44,941 bases of DNA, from assembly GCA_945903645.1 (NCBI GenBank), contig CAMDOM010000023.1, positions 1 through 44,941 of the forward strand, given 5' to 3'. Shown here in pieces: positions 2,074 through 35,636 of this stretch (its first letter is position 1; each line of letters starts with the position of its first letter). Position numbers and translations under genes: made by a program. This DNA is from Chryseobacterium gleum (lineage in GTDB: Bacteria; Bacteroidota; Bacteroidia; UBA10329). The notes below the pieces were generated by a model. It had not been told where the DNA came from and made no database searches. It worked only from the letters and a program-made list of their open reading frames with translations.

Positions 2074-3011
2074 TAGTACATCTTTTTTCGTTTCAGGAGA
2101 TAGGGCAACAGCACTTGGTCGAATTTCCGATTGATGTCGGCCTGCACCAACTCTATGCCATATTGCCCGCATTTCAGCTTCAATTGGCGTTCAAATTCTT
2201 GCATGGAAGCTAAATAGGCCTCCTTCACATCCATTGGATTTAGCTTCAGTTCTTCGCCAGTTTCCAAATCTATAAATCGGTATGGACGATTCTCAAACTG
2301 AAATTCAAGTTCGTGCTTCTTATCGGCCACATGAAATAGAATCACTTCGTGCTTGTTGTGCCTTAGATGTTGAAGCGAGGCCCACATATCATCTTGGCTC
2401 TTCTCCGAATTTTCCATCATATCGCTAAACACGATAACCAACGACCTACGTTTTATTTTATCGGCAATCTCGTGCAACGCCTGTGCGCCTGAACTTTTGG
2501 TGCGATATCCATCAGGCAAAGGATGAAGCAGTTTTTCGAGTTCCGTAAAAACCAATTTGGAATGCACCTGTGTGGAGCGCGTATCTGTGTGCACATGCAC
2601 CGCATCAGAAAACAGAGAAACACCAAATGCATCGCGTTGCTTTTTGAGAAGATGAACCAACGCTGCGGCAGCATATGTAGCAAATCCAATTTTGTTCACA
2701 TGTGTGGGCCCTGAATTATCTGACACAGGAAAATACATGGAAGAAGATGTGTCAATCACTATTTGACAGCGAAGATTGGTTTCTTCTTCATAACGTTTCA
2801 CAAACAATTTCTCCGTTCGTGCAAAAAGCTTCCAATCAATATGGCGTGTGGTTTCGCCTGTATTGTACAAGCGATGCTCGGCAAACTCTACGGAAAATCC
2901 GTGAAATGGACTTTTGTGCAATCCCGTGATAAATCCTTCAACCACTTGCTTGGCCAACAATTCGAGTTGACTGAATTGCTTAACAGATTGGCTTTGGAGA
3001 GATATGCTCAT
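2073..3011 (-). CDS. DUF58 domain-containing protein (vWA-like)
   Basis: A 312-residue cytoplasmic protein of the DUF58 family. The family signature is present: an N-terminal segment with GFSVEFAEHRLYNTGETTRHIDWKLFART-like spacing, then a von Willebrand A fold starting IVIDTSSSM, whose DxSxS pattern is an intact MIDAS metal site. In Bacteroidota such proteins usually follow moxR and precede batA-E (aerotolerance-type operons). Here no MoxR ATPase or Bat gene is adjacent: upstream is thioredoxin behind a terminator, downstream only the coupled secreted protein. A role as adaptor to a MoxR ATPase encoded elsewhere is inference. Start ATG 3011 gives the usual family length. Confidence 0.88.
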   Translation of the reverse strand: MSISLQSQSVKQFSQLELLAKQVVEGFITGLHKSPFHGFSVEFAEHRLYNTGETTRHIDWKLFARTEKLFVKRYEEETNLRCQIVIDTSSSMYFPVSDNSGPTHVNKIGFATYAAAALVHLLKKQRDAFGVSLFSDAVHVHTDTRSTQVHSKLVFTELEKLLHPLPDGYRTKSSGAQALHEIADKIKRRSLVIVFSDMMENSEKSQDDMWASLQHLRHNKHEVILFHVADKKHELEFQFENRPYRFIDLETGEELKLNPMDVKEAYLASMQEFERQLKLKCGQYGIELVQADINRKFDQVLLPYLLKRKKMY

Positions 3012-29804: not shown

Positions 29805-30104
29805 TTATCTATGTGAGTAATCTGTAGGGTTTTTATAAGCGTGAATCACAGCAAGGATAATGATTTGCTGTTTAGTATCGTCAATAACATAATGAATGTG
29901 ATAGGGAAATTGTTTTAAAAGAAGTGTTCTAACCTGGTTGTATTTTAGTTGAAACCCAAGCGGAGAGTCTGCTATGTATGCTTTAGCTTCTCGGAGACGA
30001 AACAAAAACTGTTTAGCCAGTTCAGGATTAATGTTTTTGTAATAATCTGTAGCATCAATAATATCAATCCTTACCGCAGGTCTGTTTACTAAAGAATAGC
30101 TCAT
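29805..30104 (-). CDS. RelE/ParE-type toxin (second pair)
   Basis: A 99-residue RelE/ParE toxin. Family features: N-terminal helical pair with ATDYYKNINPELAKQFLFRLREAKAYIADSPLGF, then the strand pair VRTLLLKQFPYHIHYVID and IIILAVIHAYKNP, the last being the usual IhAVhHxxRxP region. The start overlaps the antitoxin stop by four bases (ATGA). It is unlike the pair at 21920-22431 in sequence, so this is not a duplication. Confidence 0.88.
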   Translation of the reverse strand: MSYSLVNRPAVRIDIIDATDYYKNINPELAKQFLFRLREAKAYIADSPLGFQLKYNQVRTLLLKQFPYHIHYVIDDTKQQIIILAVIHAYKNPTDYSHR

Positions 30105-30343
30105 AGACTTTTTTCAATATCATCAATGGTTTTATCAAAGTCTGCTACATCCGTAAGATTATTGTAGTAGTCGCTTAACCTGTCATCAATAATTTGCTTT
30201 TGCCAAGGGGCAAGCTCCACCACGTTTTCTGCTTCTTCCTTTTGCAAATCGGTATACTTAGTTTTTAGCGATTGCCATTCCTCAATAGGGATAAATACAC
30301 CAGTTGTATTACCTCTGTTATCATGAATAAATTGCAGCGTCAT
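30101..30343 (-). CDS. Antitoxin of the second RelE/ParE pair
   Basis: An 80-residue protein. The N terminus (LQFIHDNRGNTTGVFIPIEEWQSL) has the look of a Phd/YefM-like DNA-binding start, and the acidic C-terminal helix (DRLSDYYNNLTDVADFDKTIDDIEKSL) is the kind that wraps the toxin. It directly precedes the toxin with an ATGA overlap. Confidence 0.82.
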   Translation of the reverse strand: MTLQFIHDNRGNTTGVFIPIEEWQSLKTKYTDLQKEEAENVVELAPWQKQIIDDRLSDYYNNLTDVADFDKTIDDIEKSL

Positions 30344-31203: not shown

Positions 31204-31693
31204 ATGAAAAAACGCCTCCTCACCCTCCTTACACTTGCGGCACTAACCGTTGCTCACACGGGATGCCAAGAGGGGGCCAGCGTTCAGGAAACTTCGAGCA
31301 ACGGCCAGTTCGACCCAGCAGCGGCAGGGCTTGGAACGCATAGTGTGCAATATGTGGTTGTCGGAGCAAATGGTTGTGTTGGCAGCAGTGGTCTCTGCAC
31401 CACCGTTGACCTCACCACAGGCTCAGGCATAGGCCTCGACAACGGTGGCAACGGGGTGGAGGTGTATCCTAACCCCAGCAATGGTCTCTTTACCGTGGTG
31501 ATGGATGGCTTGAACGGCATCGTTCAACTGAGCGTGATGGACATCCGTGGCCGTGAGGTGGCCTCGCAGAGCCTCACCGCCAGTGGCCGCACCACGCACA
31601 GCATCGACCTGAGCGGGCTTTGCCAATGGGGTCTATACACTCCAAATCCAGAGCGCTGCTGGTGTAAGCGGCATGAAGCTGGTGAAGGAGTAA
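31204..31693 (+). pseudogene. Frameshifted secreted protein with T9SS type A sorting domain
   Basis: The open frame from ATG 31204 has a signal peptide (MKKRLLTLLTLAALTVAHTG), the segment NGQFDPAAAGLGTHSVQYVV typical of the last repeat in large secreted Bacteroidota proteins, and a T9SS type A sorting domain (VEVYPNPSNGLFTVVM, VQLSVMDIRGREV, HSIDLSGL). After SGL the frame goes wrong. One G fewer near 31616-31619 restores FANGVYTLQIQSAAGVSGM, then KLVKE and TAA at 31691-31693, exactly the expected end, just before the terminator at 31716. As written the frame runs on to 31812. The segment before NGQFDP also seems scrambled (another frame reads GGQRSGN), so the gene may be a decayed remnant of a larger protein; a sequencing error is the alternative for the 3' shift. 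Confidence 0.7.
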
Positions 31694-31715
31694 CTGCCAA
31701 TGGCACACTCAAGGT

Positions 31716-31752
31716 AAAGCCTCACCCTCAAACGGTGGGGCTTTGGTTTTTA
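31716..31752 (+). terminator. Intrinsic terminator of the T9SS gene
   Basis: An 11-bp stem (AAAGCCTCACC with GGTGGGGCTTT, one T-G pair), 7-base loop, followed by GGTTTTTAT. It lies 23 bases after the restored stop at 31693 and inside the run-on frame, which supports the restored end. Confidence 0.75.
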
Positions 31753-31808
31753 TGCATGGCATCATTAAAAGCTAGTCCGCACCAGTATCGATGCGCCACC
31801 TGTGGTAG

Positions 31809-31840
31809 TTGAACCCTTTGTCCTTTCCGTTGTTTCTTTG
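31809..31840 (+). promoter_or_regulatory. Candidate promoter of the DUF5522 gene
   Basis: TTG (31809-31811), 21 bases, TTTCTTTG (31833-31840; one mismatch to TAnnTTTG), only six bases before ATG 31847. Another candidate for a leaderless or nearly leaderless transcript. Confidence 0.35.
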
Positions 31841-31846
31841 CAGACC

Positions 31847-32035
31847 ATGTGCCCCTTCGACAATTTCAACACCCGTCCAGCCTTAGAGCCCGATGAATTT
31901 TATCATTCGGAAGAAGGATTCATCATTTTTACATCCAAATACCTCACGAAGCGCGGCTATTGCTGCAAAAATGGCTGCAAGCATTGCCCCTATGGCTTCG
32001 ACAAAAGCAAGGGGCGCATTGTGCCAAGGAAATAA
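31847..32035 (+). CDS. DUF5522 family small cysteine-rich protein
   Basis: A 62-residue protein. The signature is RGYCCKNGCKHCPYGFDKS near the C terminus, with four cysteines in a CCxxxCxxC arrangement that probably binds zinc or an iron-sulfur cluster. The N-terminal part has FNTRPALEPDEFYHSEEGFIIFTSKYLTKRGY. This matches the DUF5522 family found across Bacteroidota; its role is unknown. I chose ATG 31847 rather than the GTG at 31802 because it fits the family N terminus. Confidence 0.85.
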   Translation: MCPFDNFNTRPALEPDEFYHSEEGFIIFTSKYLTKRGYCCKNGCKHCPYGFDKSKGRIVPRK

Positions 32036-32045
32036 ATCTTCCTTA

Positions 32046-32094
32046 TTTGAAGGATAAAAAATGCTAAATTTGTCCCACATTTGAGGATAAATTA
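32046..32094 (+). repeat. 49-base direct repeat upstream of the DUF4143 ATPase gene
   Basis: Aligns without gaps with 33467-33515 at 34 of 49 positions, 1421 bases apart. It contains GGATAAA (32052-32058), the reverse complement TTTGTCC (32069-32075) and GGATAAA (32085-32091). The spacing between the three is the same in both copies. A TAAATTTG -7 box (32065-32072) overlaps the middle motif, so a protein bound here could control the ATPase gene. Confidence 0.75.
32065..32072 (+). promoter_or_regulatory. -7 box of the DUF4143 ATPase gene
   Basis: TAAATTTG matches TAnnTTTG exactly and lies inside the 49-base repeat. The TTTG at 32046-32049 is only 15 bases upstream, short for a -33 element. 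The leader would be about 35 bases. Confidence 0.45.
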
Positions 32095-32112
32095 TTTAAT
32101 ACGCCAATTTCT

Positions 32113-33411
32113 TTGGACACTTTACTGTTACAGCGGCTCATAGTCCGCAACCGCGAATCACTACTTATGGGATCTATATCCCCGCGAGAGCTAGTTCTAC
32201 CTACCGACTTAGGTCTCATAGTGACACTTATAGGAGTGAGGCGCTGTGGTAAGACTAGTCTGTTGCAGCACACCGCTCGCGAGCTTGTTGCCAATGGTGT
32301 TTCTTCTGACCGTATCGTTTATCTAAACTTTGAAGATGAGCGTATCAGTGCAGATTTCAGCGCTTCAGATTTGGTGAATGCCCTATTATTGCTGAATCCC
32401 AATGTGGCTTTGAGTTCATACTATCTGTTTCTCGATGAGGTACAGGCCGTGTCACAATGGGAAAAAATGGTTTACACACTACACGAAACGGAAAGGGCAC
32501 GTCTTTTTATCACAGGTTCCAATTCAGATTTACTTAGTGTAGAGATAGCCACCGCACTTAGAGGACGGTCTCTCTCTTTCGAACTATTTCCATTTTCGTT
32601 CAGTGAGTTTCTCAGTATGCGCAGCCATAAATCAAATTTATTGCGAGAAGAGTCACGTGCCGAAATGCAGAATTTATTTGACGAATATTTGAAATTTGGT
32701 GGATTTCCAGATGTATGTAGTCAGCCTAATAACGCACTACGCACCCGAATATTACAAGAGTATTTCAACGCCATGTTATACCGTGACATGGTAGAACGCT
32801 ATGAAATATCATCACCCGTGACACTCAAGTATTTCTGCAAGCGATTGGTAGAAAATATCGGGAAGCCTACATCGATAAATAAAATCTACAACGAACTGAA
32901 ATCTCAGGGGCGTATGTTGACCAAAAATGTATTGTATGAATGGATAGACCATGCTCAAAATATATATCTGTTTCAGCGGTGTCCTCGGCCCGTGCAGTCA
33001 TTGGTCAAACAATCCACGGGATATGATAAATATTATGGCATAGATGCTGGAATGATGGCGGCCTTAAGCTCAACAATGGGCGAACATTATGGAAGTTTAT
33101 TGGAGAACACTGTGTTTATGCATCTGCGCAGACGACAGCATACAGTGACTTATCACAATGGCAAACGAGAATGTGATTTTTTGCTATTTGAAGATGGAAA
33201 GGTGGTGGCTGCTATCCAAGTCACCAAAACTATACGCGATTCAACTACCAAAGAGTGTGAACTAGCTGGACTTCTTGATGCTTGCAAAGCCTACAATCTC
33301 ACTAAAGGAGTAATTGTAACTGCCTATGATGAAGAAAGATTTAATCATGAGGGCGTTGAAGTGGAGGTCGTACCTGCATTTGAATATTTAGTAAGATCGA
33401 AATATTTATAA
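32113..33411 (+). CDS. AAA family ATPase with C-terminal DUF4143
   Basis: A 432-residue ATPase of the COG1373 type. Walker A is GVRRCGKT (residues 41-48), Walker B is LFLDEVQ (about 104-110), followed by FITGSNSDLLS as sensor 1 and GRSLSFELFPFSFSEFL. The C-terminal DUF4143 region has YYGIDAGMMAALSS, LLENTVFMHLRRR and the nuclease-like KRECDFLLFEDGKVVAAIQVT, which keeps a D and a QxT, a PD-(D/E)XK-like pattern. The start is TTG 32113, chosen because family members carry about 40 residues before Walker A; ATG 32167 is the alternative. It is flanked on both sides by a 49-base repeat. Cellular role unknown for the family. Confidence 0.88.
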   Translation: MDTLLLQRLIVRNRESLLMGSISPRELVLPTDLGLIVTLIGVRRCGKTSLLQHTARELVANGVSSDRIVYLNFEDERISADFSASDLVNALLLLNPNVALSSYYLFLDEVQAVSQWEKMVYTLHETERARLFITGSNSDLLSVEIATALRGRSLSFELFPFSFSEFLSMRSHKSNLLREESRAEMQNLFDEYLKFGGFPDVCSQPNNALRTRILQEYFNAMLYRDMVERYEISSPVTLKYFCKRLVENIGKPTSINKIYNELKSQGRMLTKNVLYEWIDHAQNIYLFQRCPRPVQSLVKQSTGYDKYYGIDAGMMAALSSTMGEHYGSLLENTVFMHLRRRQHTVTYHNGKRECDFLLFEDGKVVAAIQVTKTIRDSTTKECELAGLLDACKAYNLTKGVIVTAYDEERFNHEGVEVEVVPAFEYLVRSKYL

Positions 33412-33466
33412 CTCTTCAATCACTTGTTTATCATTGACTTACACGGAATAATTAAAAATGTATCGA

Positions 33467-33515
33467 TTTGAAGGACAAAAATTACATTTTTTATCCCTAT
33501 TACAAGGATAAATAA
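33467..33515 (+). repeat. 49-base direct repeat downstream of the DUF4143 ATPase gene
   Basis: The second copy, between the ATPase stop and hutU. Motifs: GGACAAA (33473-33479), TTTATCC (33490-33496) and GGATAAA (33506-33512). The last two form a perfect 7-base inverted repeat with a 9-base loop. The -7 box found in the upstream copy is not conserved here. Confidence 0.72.
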
Positions 33516-33554
33516 ATTAAATTGCTATAAGTAATTGATAATAAGCTTGTTTAA

Positions 33555-35636
33555 ATGAATCATTTCCAATCTACCATTTGCCAAGGCATTCCTGCCCAAT
33601 TACCTGCTCTACAGCCGCTTGATGCTTCGGTGTCGCACGCCCCAAAACGCAAGGATATTCTTTCTTCTGACGAAAAAAAACTGGCGCTGCGCAATGCCTT
33701 GCGCTATTTTCCAAAGGAGTGGCACGCGGATTTAGCCGTAGATTTTCTGCACGAATTGAAGGAATATGGCCGCATTTATATGCACCGCTTTCGCCCCAGT
33801 TATGCCATGCACGCGCGGCCTATTGATGCCTATCCAGCCCAATGCCAGCAGGCTGCGGCCATCATGCTTATGATTCAGAACAACTTGGATCCCGCTGTGG
33901 CGCAGCATCCGCACGAGCTGATAACCTATGGCGGCAATGGGGCGGTGTTTCAAAATTGGGCGCAATACCTGCTCACCATGCGCTATTTGAGTGAGATGAC
34001 CGAGCAGCAAACCTTGGCCATGTATAGCGGCCACCCGATGGGGCTCTTCCCCTCCCACCCCGATGCACCTCGCGTAGTGGTGACCAACGGCATGATGATT
34101 CCCAACTATTCCAAACCTGACGATTGGGAACGCTTCAACGCCCTTGGCGTGACGCAATACGGCCAAATGACTGCTGGTTCGTACATGTACATTGGCCCAC
34201 AAGGCATAGTGCATGGCACGGCCATTACGGTGCTCAATGCGGTGCGGAAGATAAAAGCGACCTCCCCCGACCCCTCCTTCCCAGGAGGGGAGCTGCCGCA
34301 GCAGGGAACACCCCCCCTGGGAAGGGGGGGTGCCCGAAGGGCGGGGGGATCTGAGTATCTGCCGCTATTTGTGACCAGCGGCCTAGGCGGTATGAGCGGG
34401 GCACAACCCAAGGCGGGCAACATTGCAGGGGTGATTACCATATGTGCCGAAATAAATCCTGCGGCTGCCTACAAGCGCCATGCACAAGGTTGGGTGGATG
34501 AGGTAATCGAAGATGTGGATACTGCTATTGACGCGGCCCAACAGTGGCAATCCAAAAATGTGGCGCACAGCATCGCTTTCTTAGGGAATATCGTTGATTT
34601 GTGGGAACGCCTAGCCCAGCGCAACATTGCCGTAGACCTTGGCAGTGATCAAACAAGCCTGCACAACCCATGGGCGGGAGGATACTATCCTGTTGGATTA
34701 TCCTTGGAGGAAAGCAATGGCATGATGGCCGCGCAACCCGGATTGTTCCAGCAAAAAGTTCACGAATCGCTACGCAGACAGGTTTTGGCCATCAATACAT
34801 TGGCAGAAAATGGCATGTATTTCTTCGATTATGGAAACGCGTTTCTTCTTAAAGCAGGGCGTGCTGGTGCGGATATCGTGAAAGAAGACGGCACATTTAT
34901 TTACCCCAGCTACGTGCAGGATATCATGGGCCCCATGTGTTTCGATTATGGGTTTGGGCCGTTTCGGTGGGTGTGCGCCTCCGGCAAGCCCGAAGACTTG
35001 GCCGCTACCGATGCCATTGCCGCAGATGTGATAGCGGAAATGCTACAATCCGCGCCAGCAGACATTTGCCCACAACTGCAAGACAATCTGCATTGGGTAC
35101 GCAATGCCCATGAAAACCGTCTTGTGGTGGGTACGCAAGCCCGCATTTTGTATGCCGATGCCGAAGGAAGAATGAAAATAGCAGCTGCATTTAACCGCGC
35201 CATTCGCGATGGGAAAATTGGCGCGATAGTTCTAGGTCGGGACCACCACGATGTGTCGGGTACAGATTCGCCCTATCGCGAAACCAGTAATATCTATGAT
35301 GGCTCACAGTTTACAGCCGACATGGCGGTTCAGAATTTCGTGGGCGATGCCTTTCGTGGCGCCACATGGGTAAGCCTTCACAATGGCGGTGGTGTGGGCT
35401 GGGGCGAGGTAATCAATGGTGGCTTTGGAATGCTGTTGGACGGTTCGGAAGATGCCGATAGACGCTTAAAAATGATGCTGCACTGGGATGTGAACAACGG
35501 CATTACACGCAGAAGTTGGGCACGAAACGATGGCGCAGTATCTGCCATAACCCGCGCCATGCAGCAAGAACCACTGCTTAAAGTGACGCTGCCGAATAGG
35601 GTAGACGATTCCGTTTTTGGCGCGTTGCAATTTTGA
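33555..35636 (+). CDS. hutU: Urocanate hydratase (urocanase) with in-frame insertion
   Basis: A 693-residue urocanase, which converts urocanate to imidazolone propionate in histidine breakdown using tightly bound NAD+. Recognisable segments: YGGNGAVFQNW, YSGHPMGLFP, GQMTAGSYMYIGPQGIVHGT, VTSGLGGMSGAQPKA, DQTSLHNPWAGGYYPVG, and a C-terminal GRDHHDVSGTDSPYRETSN. Bacteroidota urocanases are of this longer type (about 660-680 residues). Between RKIKA and LFVTSG it carries about 31 foreign residues rich in Gly, Pro and Arg, encoded by a GC-rich palindrome (34260-34349) that keeps the frame. No other hut gene is in the window. Confidence 0.93.
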   Translation: MNHFQSTICQGIPAQLPALQPLDASVSHAPKRKDILSSDEKKLALRNALRYFPKEWHADLAVDFLHELKEYGRIYMHRFRPSYAMHARPIDAYPAQCQQAAAIMLMIQNNLDPAVAQHPHELITYGGNGAVFQNWAQYLLTMRYLSEMTEQQTLAMYSGHPMGLFPSHPDAPRVVVTNGMMIPNYSKPDDWERFNALGVTQYGQMTAGSYMYIGPQGIVHGTAITVLNAVRKIKATSPDPSFPGGELPQQGTPPLGRGGARRAGGSEYLPLFVTSGLGGMSGAQPKAGNIAGVITICAEINPAAAYKRHAQGWVDEVIEDVDTAIDAAQQWQSKNVAHSIAFLGNIVDLWERLAQRNIAVDLGSDQTSLHNPWAGGYYPVGLSLEESNGMMAAQPGLFQQKVHESLRRQVLAINTLAENGMYFFDYGNAFLLKAGRAGADIVKEDGTFIYPSYVQDIMGPMCFDYGFGPFRWVCASGKPEDLAATDAIAADVIAEMLQSAPADICPQLQDNLHWVRNAHENRLVVGTQARILYADAEGRMKIAAAFNRAIRDGKIGAIVLGRDHHDVSGTDSPYRETSNIYDGSQFTADMAVQNFVGDAFRGATWVSLHNGGGVGWGEVINGGFGMLLDGSEDADRRLKMMLHWDVNNGITRRSWARNDGAVSAITRAMQQEPLLKVTLPNRVDDSVFGALQF
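34260..34349 (+). repeat. GC-rich palindromic element inside hutU
   Basis: A 90-base inverted repeat. The outer arms are TCCCCCGA (34263) against GCGGGGGGA (34341-34349), the inner arms CCTTCCCAGGAGGGG (34276-34290) against CCCCCCCTGGGAAGG (34311-34325). A small GCCCGAAGGGC hairpin sits in the right arm. Its base composition is far from that of the host gene. It is of the kind of G/C-run palindromic repeats that occur in many copies in some Bacteroidota genomes. Confidence 0.8.

Follow-up and report, generated by a model that had tools for sequence, protein, structure and literature searches.

A gene for an ATPase in Chryseobacterium gleum lies between two copies of a short direct repeat, and this arrangement raises the question whether the repeats are binding sites for a regulator, perhaps for the ATPase itself, or whether they mark the ends of a gene-sized mobile unit. 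Both possibilities had been put forward in an initial annotation of the window, by which we mean the whole stretch of 44,941 nucleotides that was analysed. Here, we follow the repeats from the locus itself to the homologues of the ATPase in Bacteria and Archaea.

The paired arrays and their surroundings

The two repeats (32046-32094 and 33467-33515) align without gaps, with 34 of 49 bases identical on recounting. They can be extended to 55 nt (32045-32099 and 33466-33520; 39 of 55 bases, 71% identity), and the extended repeat attains a z of 8.4 against Markov shuffles of both flanks, and of 5.9 when narrower flanks are used. Each copy forms an array of two palindromes of about 23 bp (TTTRTCC-N9-GGAYAAA) that are set 33 bp apart, as can be read from the half-site pairs 32052 to 32085 in the left array and 33473 to 33506 in the right one; the outer left arm is degenerate (Table 1).

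The initial annotation had described 49-base repeats matching at 34 of 49 positions, with three motifs equally spaced in both copies and not attributable to chance, one copy holding the -7 box of the gene and the other following its stop codon. This description is confirmed: the three core half-sites are kept at identical spacing, and the triplet GGAYAAA-TTTRTCC-GGAYAAA, searched with variable spacings, has exactly two matches in the 3,195,031-base genome, both of them at the window locus, with no match of the reversed control pattern in the whole genome. An even scatter of the triplet through the genome, named in that annotation as an outcome that would count against its proposal, was hence not what we found. 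The perfect palindrome TTTRTCC-N9-GGAYAAA is likewise present genome-wide only at 32069-32091 and 33490-33512, and weaker matches to it are no more frequent than in the control (68 vs 80). Since the sites are unique to this locus, a global regulator acting throughout the genome can be excluded, and a structured RNA was rejected because the Rfam match was at chance level.

The left array begins at 32036, immediately past the stop codon of the DUF5522 gene, and its second palindrome overlaps the -7 box and ends about 20 nt upstream of the start codon of the ATPase gene. The -7 box (32065-32072) is thereby located inside an array that overlaps the gene's own promoter, the layout of an autoregulatory operator. 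Promoters of Bacteroidota carry a -7 box of the consensus TAnnTTTG and a -33 TTTG at a spacing of about 19-21; here, a TTTG is found 15 nt upstream of the -7 box TAAATTTG, so that the -33 spacing is not ideal. The equivalent of this box in the second copy reads TACATTTT, and the consensus is lost.

Table 1. Features of the window locus, followed by operator arrays found without their gene in other genomes
Feature	Position	Strand	Basis or remark
DUF5522 gene, left neighbour	31847..32035	+	Pfam; its end abuts the unit
Left array, palindrome 1 (imperfect), ATCTTCCTTATTTGAAGGATAAA	32036..32058	none	Sequence and comparison of the family layout; right half-site GGATAAA is motif 1 of the initial annotation
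-7 box TAAATTTG, Bacteroidota-type	32065..32072	+	Read from the sequence; overlaps half-site TTTGTCC
Left array, palindrome 2, TTTGTCCCACATTTGAGGATAAA	32069..32091	none	Exact pattern; 33 bp from palindrome 1
ATPase gene (AAA_14 + DUF4143; PDC-S01), 432 aa, TTG start	32113..33411	+	Pfam, PADLOC, AlphaFold
Right array, palindrome 1 (left arm degenerate), AATGTATCGATTTGAAGGACAAA	33457..33479	none	Sequence comparison
Right array, palindrome 2, TTTATCCCTATTACAAGGATAAA	33490..33512	none	Exact pattern; 33 bp from palindrome 1
Putative acquired unit of 1,485 bp (both arrays and the gene)	32036..33520	+	Absent in four congeners
Urocanase gene, right neighbour	33555..35636	+	Pfam
Lone operator array, L238	2433-2500 (on the reverse complement of the locus)		Cognate gene absent from the genome
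Lone operator array, L236	about 2191-2256		Cognate gene absent from the genome

Several features were recorded nearby. A ParE-type toxin gene (29805-30104) stands beside a RelB-like antitoxin candidate (30101-30343) that scores below the Pfam cut-off, both on the minus strand. A short open reading frame of secreted type (31204-31809) bears a Por secretion tail (PF18962) and looks altered or truncated, since its frame continues past this tail. The urocanase gene contains, at 34241-34367, about 90 extra in-frame and GC-rich bases (TSPDPSFPGGELPQQGTPPLGRGGARRAGG) relative to two congeners, and the urocanase of other congeners has in-frame extra sequence elsewhere, near residue 442; this extra sequence resembles a dispersed repeat inserted in frame.

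The ATPase and the phasing of its operators

Both Pfam domains of the encoded protein score far above their cut-offs (PF13173, AAA_14, 113.4 bits vs 27; PF13635, DUF4143, 62.4 vs 28.1), and the PADLOC profile PDLC04787 matches residues 31-427 (E 2.4e-110), which assigns the protein to the group PDC-S01. Sequence searches with the ATPase against PDB, NCBIfam and PHROGs gave no useful match. An AlphaFold model built from 38 aligned homologues reached a mean pLDDT of 90.6, and the ordered helix predicted at the N-terminus (residues 3-19) supports the TTG start. The nearest solved folds in a Foldseek search were 2fna (SSO1545; E 2e-8), 2qen (PABY2304) and 2qby (Cdc6/Orc1 on origin DNA; E 4e-6 and 7e-6), at TM values of only 0.29-0.41, so that the similarity is one at the level of domains. 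Within this limit, the model resembles the AAA+ proteins of the Cdc6/Orc1 type that possess a winged helix; the predicted secondary structure of the window protein can be read as placing such a winged helix at about residues 235-290.

At about residues 326-421, the protein is predicted to adopt a PD-(D/E)XK-like fold in which the lysine is replaced: the active signature D..(D/E)xK gives way to E..D..Q-V-T (E331..D355..Q369-V-T371). The position of the lysine is held by C, S, A or T in most of 164 relatives, and ExK is present in a minority, mostly distant ones. Catalysis by this domain is consequently doubtful in the window branch, and it may only bind DNA or partners.

Is the array a feature of this one gene, or of its family? 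We gathered homologues by class-wide and species-wide searches, in a sample biased to Bacteroidota, and scored repeats by simple ungapped comparison from automated start codons, with thresholds (z>3, score>=10) of our own choosing. An upstream repeat, direct or inverted, was found at z>3 in 59.5% of 126 homologous loci and in 12.4% of 113 upstream regions of neighbouring genes; at z>5, the corresponding values were 40.5 and 6.2%. The 40% of the 126 loci that lack an upstream repeat at z>3 do so in part owing to a single or diverged array. An overlap of array and -7 box like that of the window was seen by inspection in several relatives. The letters of the operator vary from member to member (e.g., TTTTGTCGAATATATTCGATAAAA, TTTTGTTCATTATACTGAATAAAA, TATCTTTCGTTAGTAACGAAAGATA), and GGAYAAA is absent from most homologues, which excludes a single motif for the whole family. 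They diverge so fast that upstream regions resemble each other only where the proteins are more than about 55% identical; below this value, comparing entire upstream regions letter by letter with protein similarity is uninformative. The search for the motif triplet around homologues, which the initial annotation had proposed, therefore usually fails at the level of letters, and nevertheless recovers the same architecture spelled in other letters.

What is conserved is the phasing. A strong direct repeat was present in 74 of 163 loci, with preferred spacings of 23 bp (19 loci), 32-33 bp (35 loci) and 40-41 bp (11 loci); shuffled sequences yielded 6.6 loci with no preferred spacing, and stretches inside the genes yielded 3. 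Mapped onto the protein tree, the spacing class changes only four times, as compared with a mean of 30.8 and a minimum of 24 for shuffled labels, and among 35 loci sharing less than 50% identity, archaea included, four changes stand against 14.8 for shuffled labels (minimum 11). As these classes are so sharp, we expect the result to depend little on the thresholds. The 23-bp class unites methanogens with Bacteroidota, the 33-bp class has archaeal members too, and relatives in both classes likewise match the PADLOC PDC-S01 profile. A difference of four residues in the length of the helix-turn-helix (HTH) goes with the spacing class: it measures 17-18 residues in all 20 loci of the 23-bp class, and 21 residues in 14 of 15 loci of the 40-bp class and in 22 of 29 of the 33-bp class. 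Even the two paralogues in the genome under study differ, the window copy having a spacing of 33 bp and the other one (at C7) of 23 bp.

Because the spacing follows the protein tree across Bacteria and Archaea, each array is very likely the operator that the ATPase encoded beside it recognises. Judged from these sequence comparisons, host regulators would not easily account for the match between spacing and protein, and recognition by the ATPase itself could. The proposal of the initial annotation that the repeats are regulator sites, perhaps those of the ATPase, is in this way well supported by the congruence with the ATPase tree, the differing paralogues and the winged helix in the predicted fold.

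Two further observations concern other ATPases. In locus L106, from position 1737 onward, a gene for an ATPase of an apparently different type is located 3' of the DUF4143 gene, and its promoter contains a very similar half-site (TTTGTCG...AAATAAAA), so that this style of operator may extend to other ATPase families. A distant relative of the ATPase (about 27%) is found in 173 Acinetobacter plasmid records (e.g., L208) among 236 plasmid records matched overall.

Presence, absence and boundaries of the unit

Empty sites in close relatives, the comparison suggested in the initial annotation, do exist: in four species of the same genus, the DUF5522 and urocanase genes are adjacent and the unit is missing, with a gap about as long as what lies outside the arrays here. 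These empty sites contain no lone array of the window motif. A second such site involves L127, the closest homologue in the class search, which adjoins a gene for a PLP-enzyme; the same site is empty in congeners, and in genome G417 it holds a remnant that joins an operator to the final 35 bp of the lost gene. A dispersed repeat of about 130-260 bp was noted beside the unit at L127 (genome G348, about start-670 to start-62), and it is present in many places in G417 and G406.

The loci L084 and L086 have a stretch of DNA in common that takes in both arrays, starting at the outer edge of the left one and stopping shortly beyond the right one (start-91 to stop+44); these boundaries derive from pairwise BLAST and are accurate to about 10-20 bp. 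The two loci occupy the same chromosomal neighbourhood and are about 2 kb apart relative to their common flank. At the L084 site, which belongs to a genus other than that of the window, genome G438 has array, gene and array, and G643 has the same two flanks around one array of two palindromes, with the gene absent. This lone array ends on either side where the two arrays of G438 have their outer edges. Another lone array was found in G639, and a cognate gene was not detected elsewhere in either G643 or G639. A discrete unit that is present or absent at orthologous sites is thus seen in the genus of the window, at the L127 site and in the pair G438/G643. Lone arrays could have arisen either through loss of the gene by recombination between arrays or because a gene entered at an array; to account for them, passive recombination between direct repeats suffices.

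A group of 16 loci in Prevotella and related bacteria encodes closely similar proteins (93-97% identity in 13 genomes). Their DNA similarity starts near -125, at positions between roughly -117 and -140, and stops at about the stop codon, and the flanking proteins have nothing in common except for one 30% match. We found no target duplication at these 16 loci, the longest match between a locus' own flanks (5.69) being close to that between mismatched flanks (5.72), with unit ends known to 10-20 bp. For the Prevotella copy L116, a search with its flanks in 200 relatives returned mainly one conserved flank and no clean empty site. The near-identical unit is represented by one copy in each of the 13 genomes, and likewise by one each in G438, G439 and G638; what is seen is therefore spread between genomes and not amplification within them. 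Pfam detected only AAA domains and DUF4143 in the window unit, and no known transposase or recombinase domain. Six relatives (L130, L131, L136, L141, L152, L008) are broken by stop codons, which suggests rapid gain and decay of these ATPase genes.

Arrays on both sides of the gene are rare. Direct comparison at z>4 found them in 8 of 161 loci, and the control taken from inside genes contained none; one of the eight, L106, is probably explained by the promoter of the next ATPase gene. A profile scan restricted to loci with a strong upstream repeat found 3 of 72. A downstream array is excluded by these numbers as a general feature, and the system does not require the right array. In L102, a partial second copy after the stop codon consists of an array and about 35 codons. 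Of the idea that the gene travels as a mobile unit, gain and loss as a block is borne out by empty sites, close copies without common flanks and lone arrays; the idea that the repeats are its working ends fares less well, since most relatives are one-sided, the 16-locus group shows no target duplication and the checked genomes contain no two near-identical copies.

Readings of the locus and known systems

Most likely, the locus represents a nomadic, self-regulating single gene that brings its operator along; the right array may or may not have a function today. In the form that we consider probable, a self-recognised operator array travels on a nomadic one-gene cassette, at whose other edge a second copy stands as the right array. 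We infer that the PDC-S01 ATPase recognises the palindromes through its winged helix and assembles on two phased palindromes; when bound, it would cover the -7 box and the start region and so control, most likely repress, its own gene. The cassette of array and gene would have been acquired as a block between the DUF5522 and urocanase genes, the right array marking its other edge, and recombination between the arrays would remove the gene and leave one array behind.

That the right array is functionless, the remnant of a second, adjacent unit whose gene was deleted or a chance duplication, is possible if rather doubtful, and would be compatible with a working left operator. The partial second copy in L102, the fused remnant in G417 and the lone arrays without cognate gene in G643 and G639 are what such events should leave; however, both window arrays have kept the three core half-sites and their spacing despite diverged letters in between, which suggests constraint, and two-sided arrays recur in unrelated subfamilies. 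We regard it as unlikely that the arrays are the ends of an active mobile unit, be it a one-gene transposon or a site-specific element, which the AAA+/REase-like protein itself moves or excises. The coincidence of the L084/L086 boundaries with the outer array edges, the matching edges of the lone array in G643, near-identical units at distinct sites and the empty sites would all suit it, but in most members just one side of the gene has an array, the 16-locus group lacks a target duplication, each of 13 genomes holds a single near-identical copy, the PD-(D/E)XK lysine is replaced in the window subfamily, and the empty sites in the window's genus contain no lone array of its motif. Equally speculative is the broader notion that PDC-S01-type genes are self-recognising one-gene mobile elements whose Orc1-like AAA+/REase-like protein binds the phased palindromes at the ends to excise, to insert and to exclude a second copy of the same specificity; if this were true, a genome could harbour several members, but only one per operator type.

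Control of the ATPase genes by a host transcription factor appears very improbable to us: operators overlapping a promoter are what ordinary regulation would look like, yet the spacing class follows the ATPase across phyla in Bacteria and Archaea, the paralogues within one genome differ, and the sites are found nowhere else in that genome. Still harder to credit is a role of the right array as operator for urocanase, whose gene begins 35-100 bp further downstream. The array's location ahead of 33555 would fit; the lost -7 consensus in the right copy, the urocanase genes of congeners that have no array, and the unrelated downstream genes at other two-sided loci all speak against it.

According to two reports, PDC-S01 is a candidate single-gene phage defence in which an ATPase is fused to a PD-(D/E)XK-type domain; it is spread across domains and ranks fourth by frequency among the defence candidates of prokaryotes (PMC12988326). 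Among single defence loci of rumen genomes it is the most frequent one (PMC12988326, PMC13356809), and its antiviral function is reported as unvalidated (PMC12988326). The window protein is a member by its profile match (E 2.4e-110), with a candidate antiviral role only. Operator arrays and boundaries of a gene-sized unit are not mentioned in the accessible part of the PDC-S01 description (PMC12988326). A literature search of partial coverage returned no account of PDC-S01 operators, operator grammar, unit boundaries, control or spread, and almost nothing on DUF4143/COG1373. An operator spacing that follows the protein offers a direct handle, as the array would predict the DNA bound by each protein and so make binding, autoregulation and trigger testable together. 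The sharp unit boundaries and the lone arrays, in turn, reduce the unexplained spread of PDC-S01 to a question of one gene and one site.

With SSO1545, PABY2304 and Cdc6/Orc1 (2fna, 2qen, 2qby), the window ATPase has AAA+ and winged helix in common at an identity of 12-14%, and it differs by an additional C-terminal REase-like domain; no replication origin is implied. Orc1/Cdc6 binds repeats at archaeal origins, often beside its own gene. IniR of mycobacteria is an ATPase regulator of transcription that combines an AAA+ domain likened to SSO1545 with a DNA-binding domain, but both its domain architecture and its DNA-binding domain differ from those of the window ATPase (PMC5760070). Insertion sequences and small transposons resemble the PDC-S01 unit in being gene-sized, in occupying non-homologous sites and, in some members, in their terminal repeats, whereas the PDC-S01 unit has no known transposase, yielded no target duplication in the 16-locus group and usually has an array on just one of its sides. 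Restriction-modification controller boxes, toxin-antitoxin operators and iteron-type rep operators consist of tandem palindromes over their own promoter, with gene-specific letters and horizontal spread. The window system has these three traits in common with such autoregulated single regulators; what sets the window system apart is that it comprises one gene without a partner, and that its operators fall into three discrete phasing classes which follow the ATPase.
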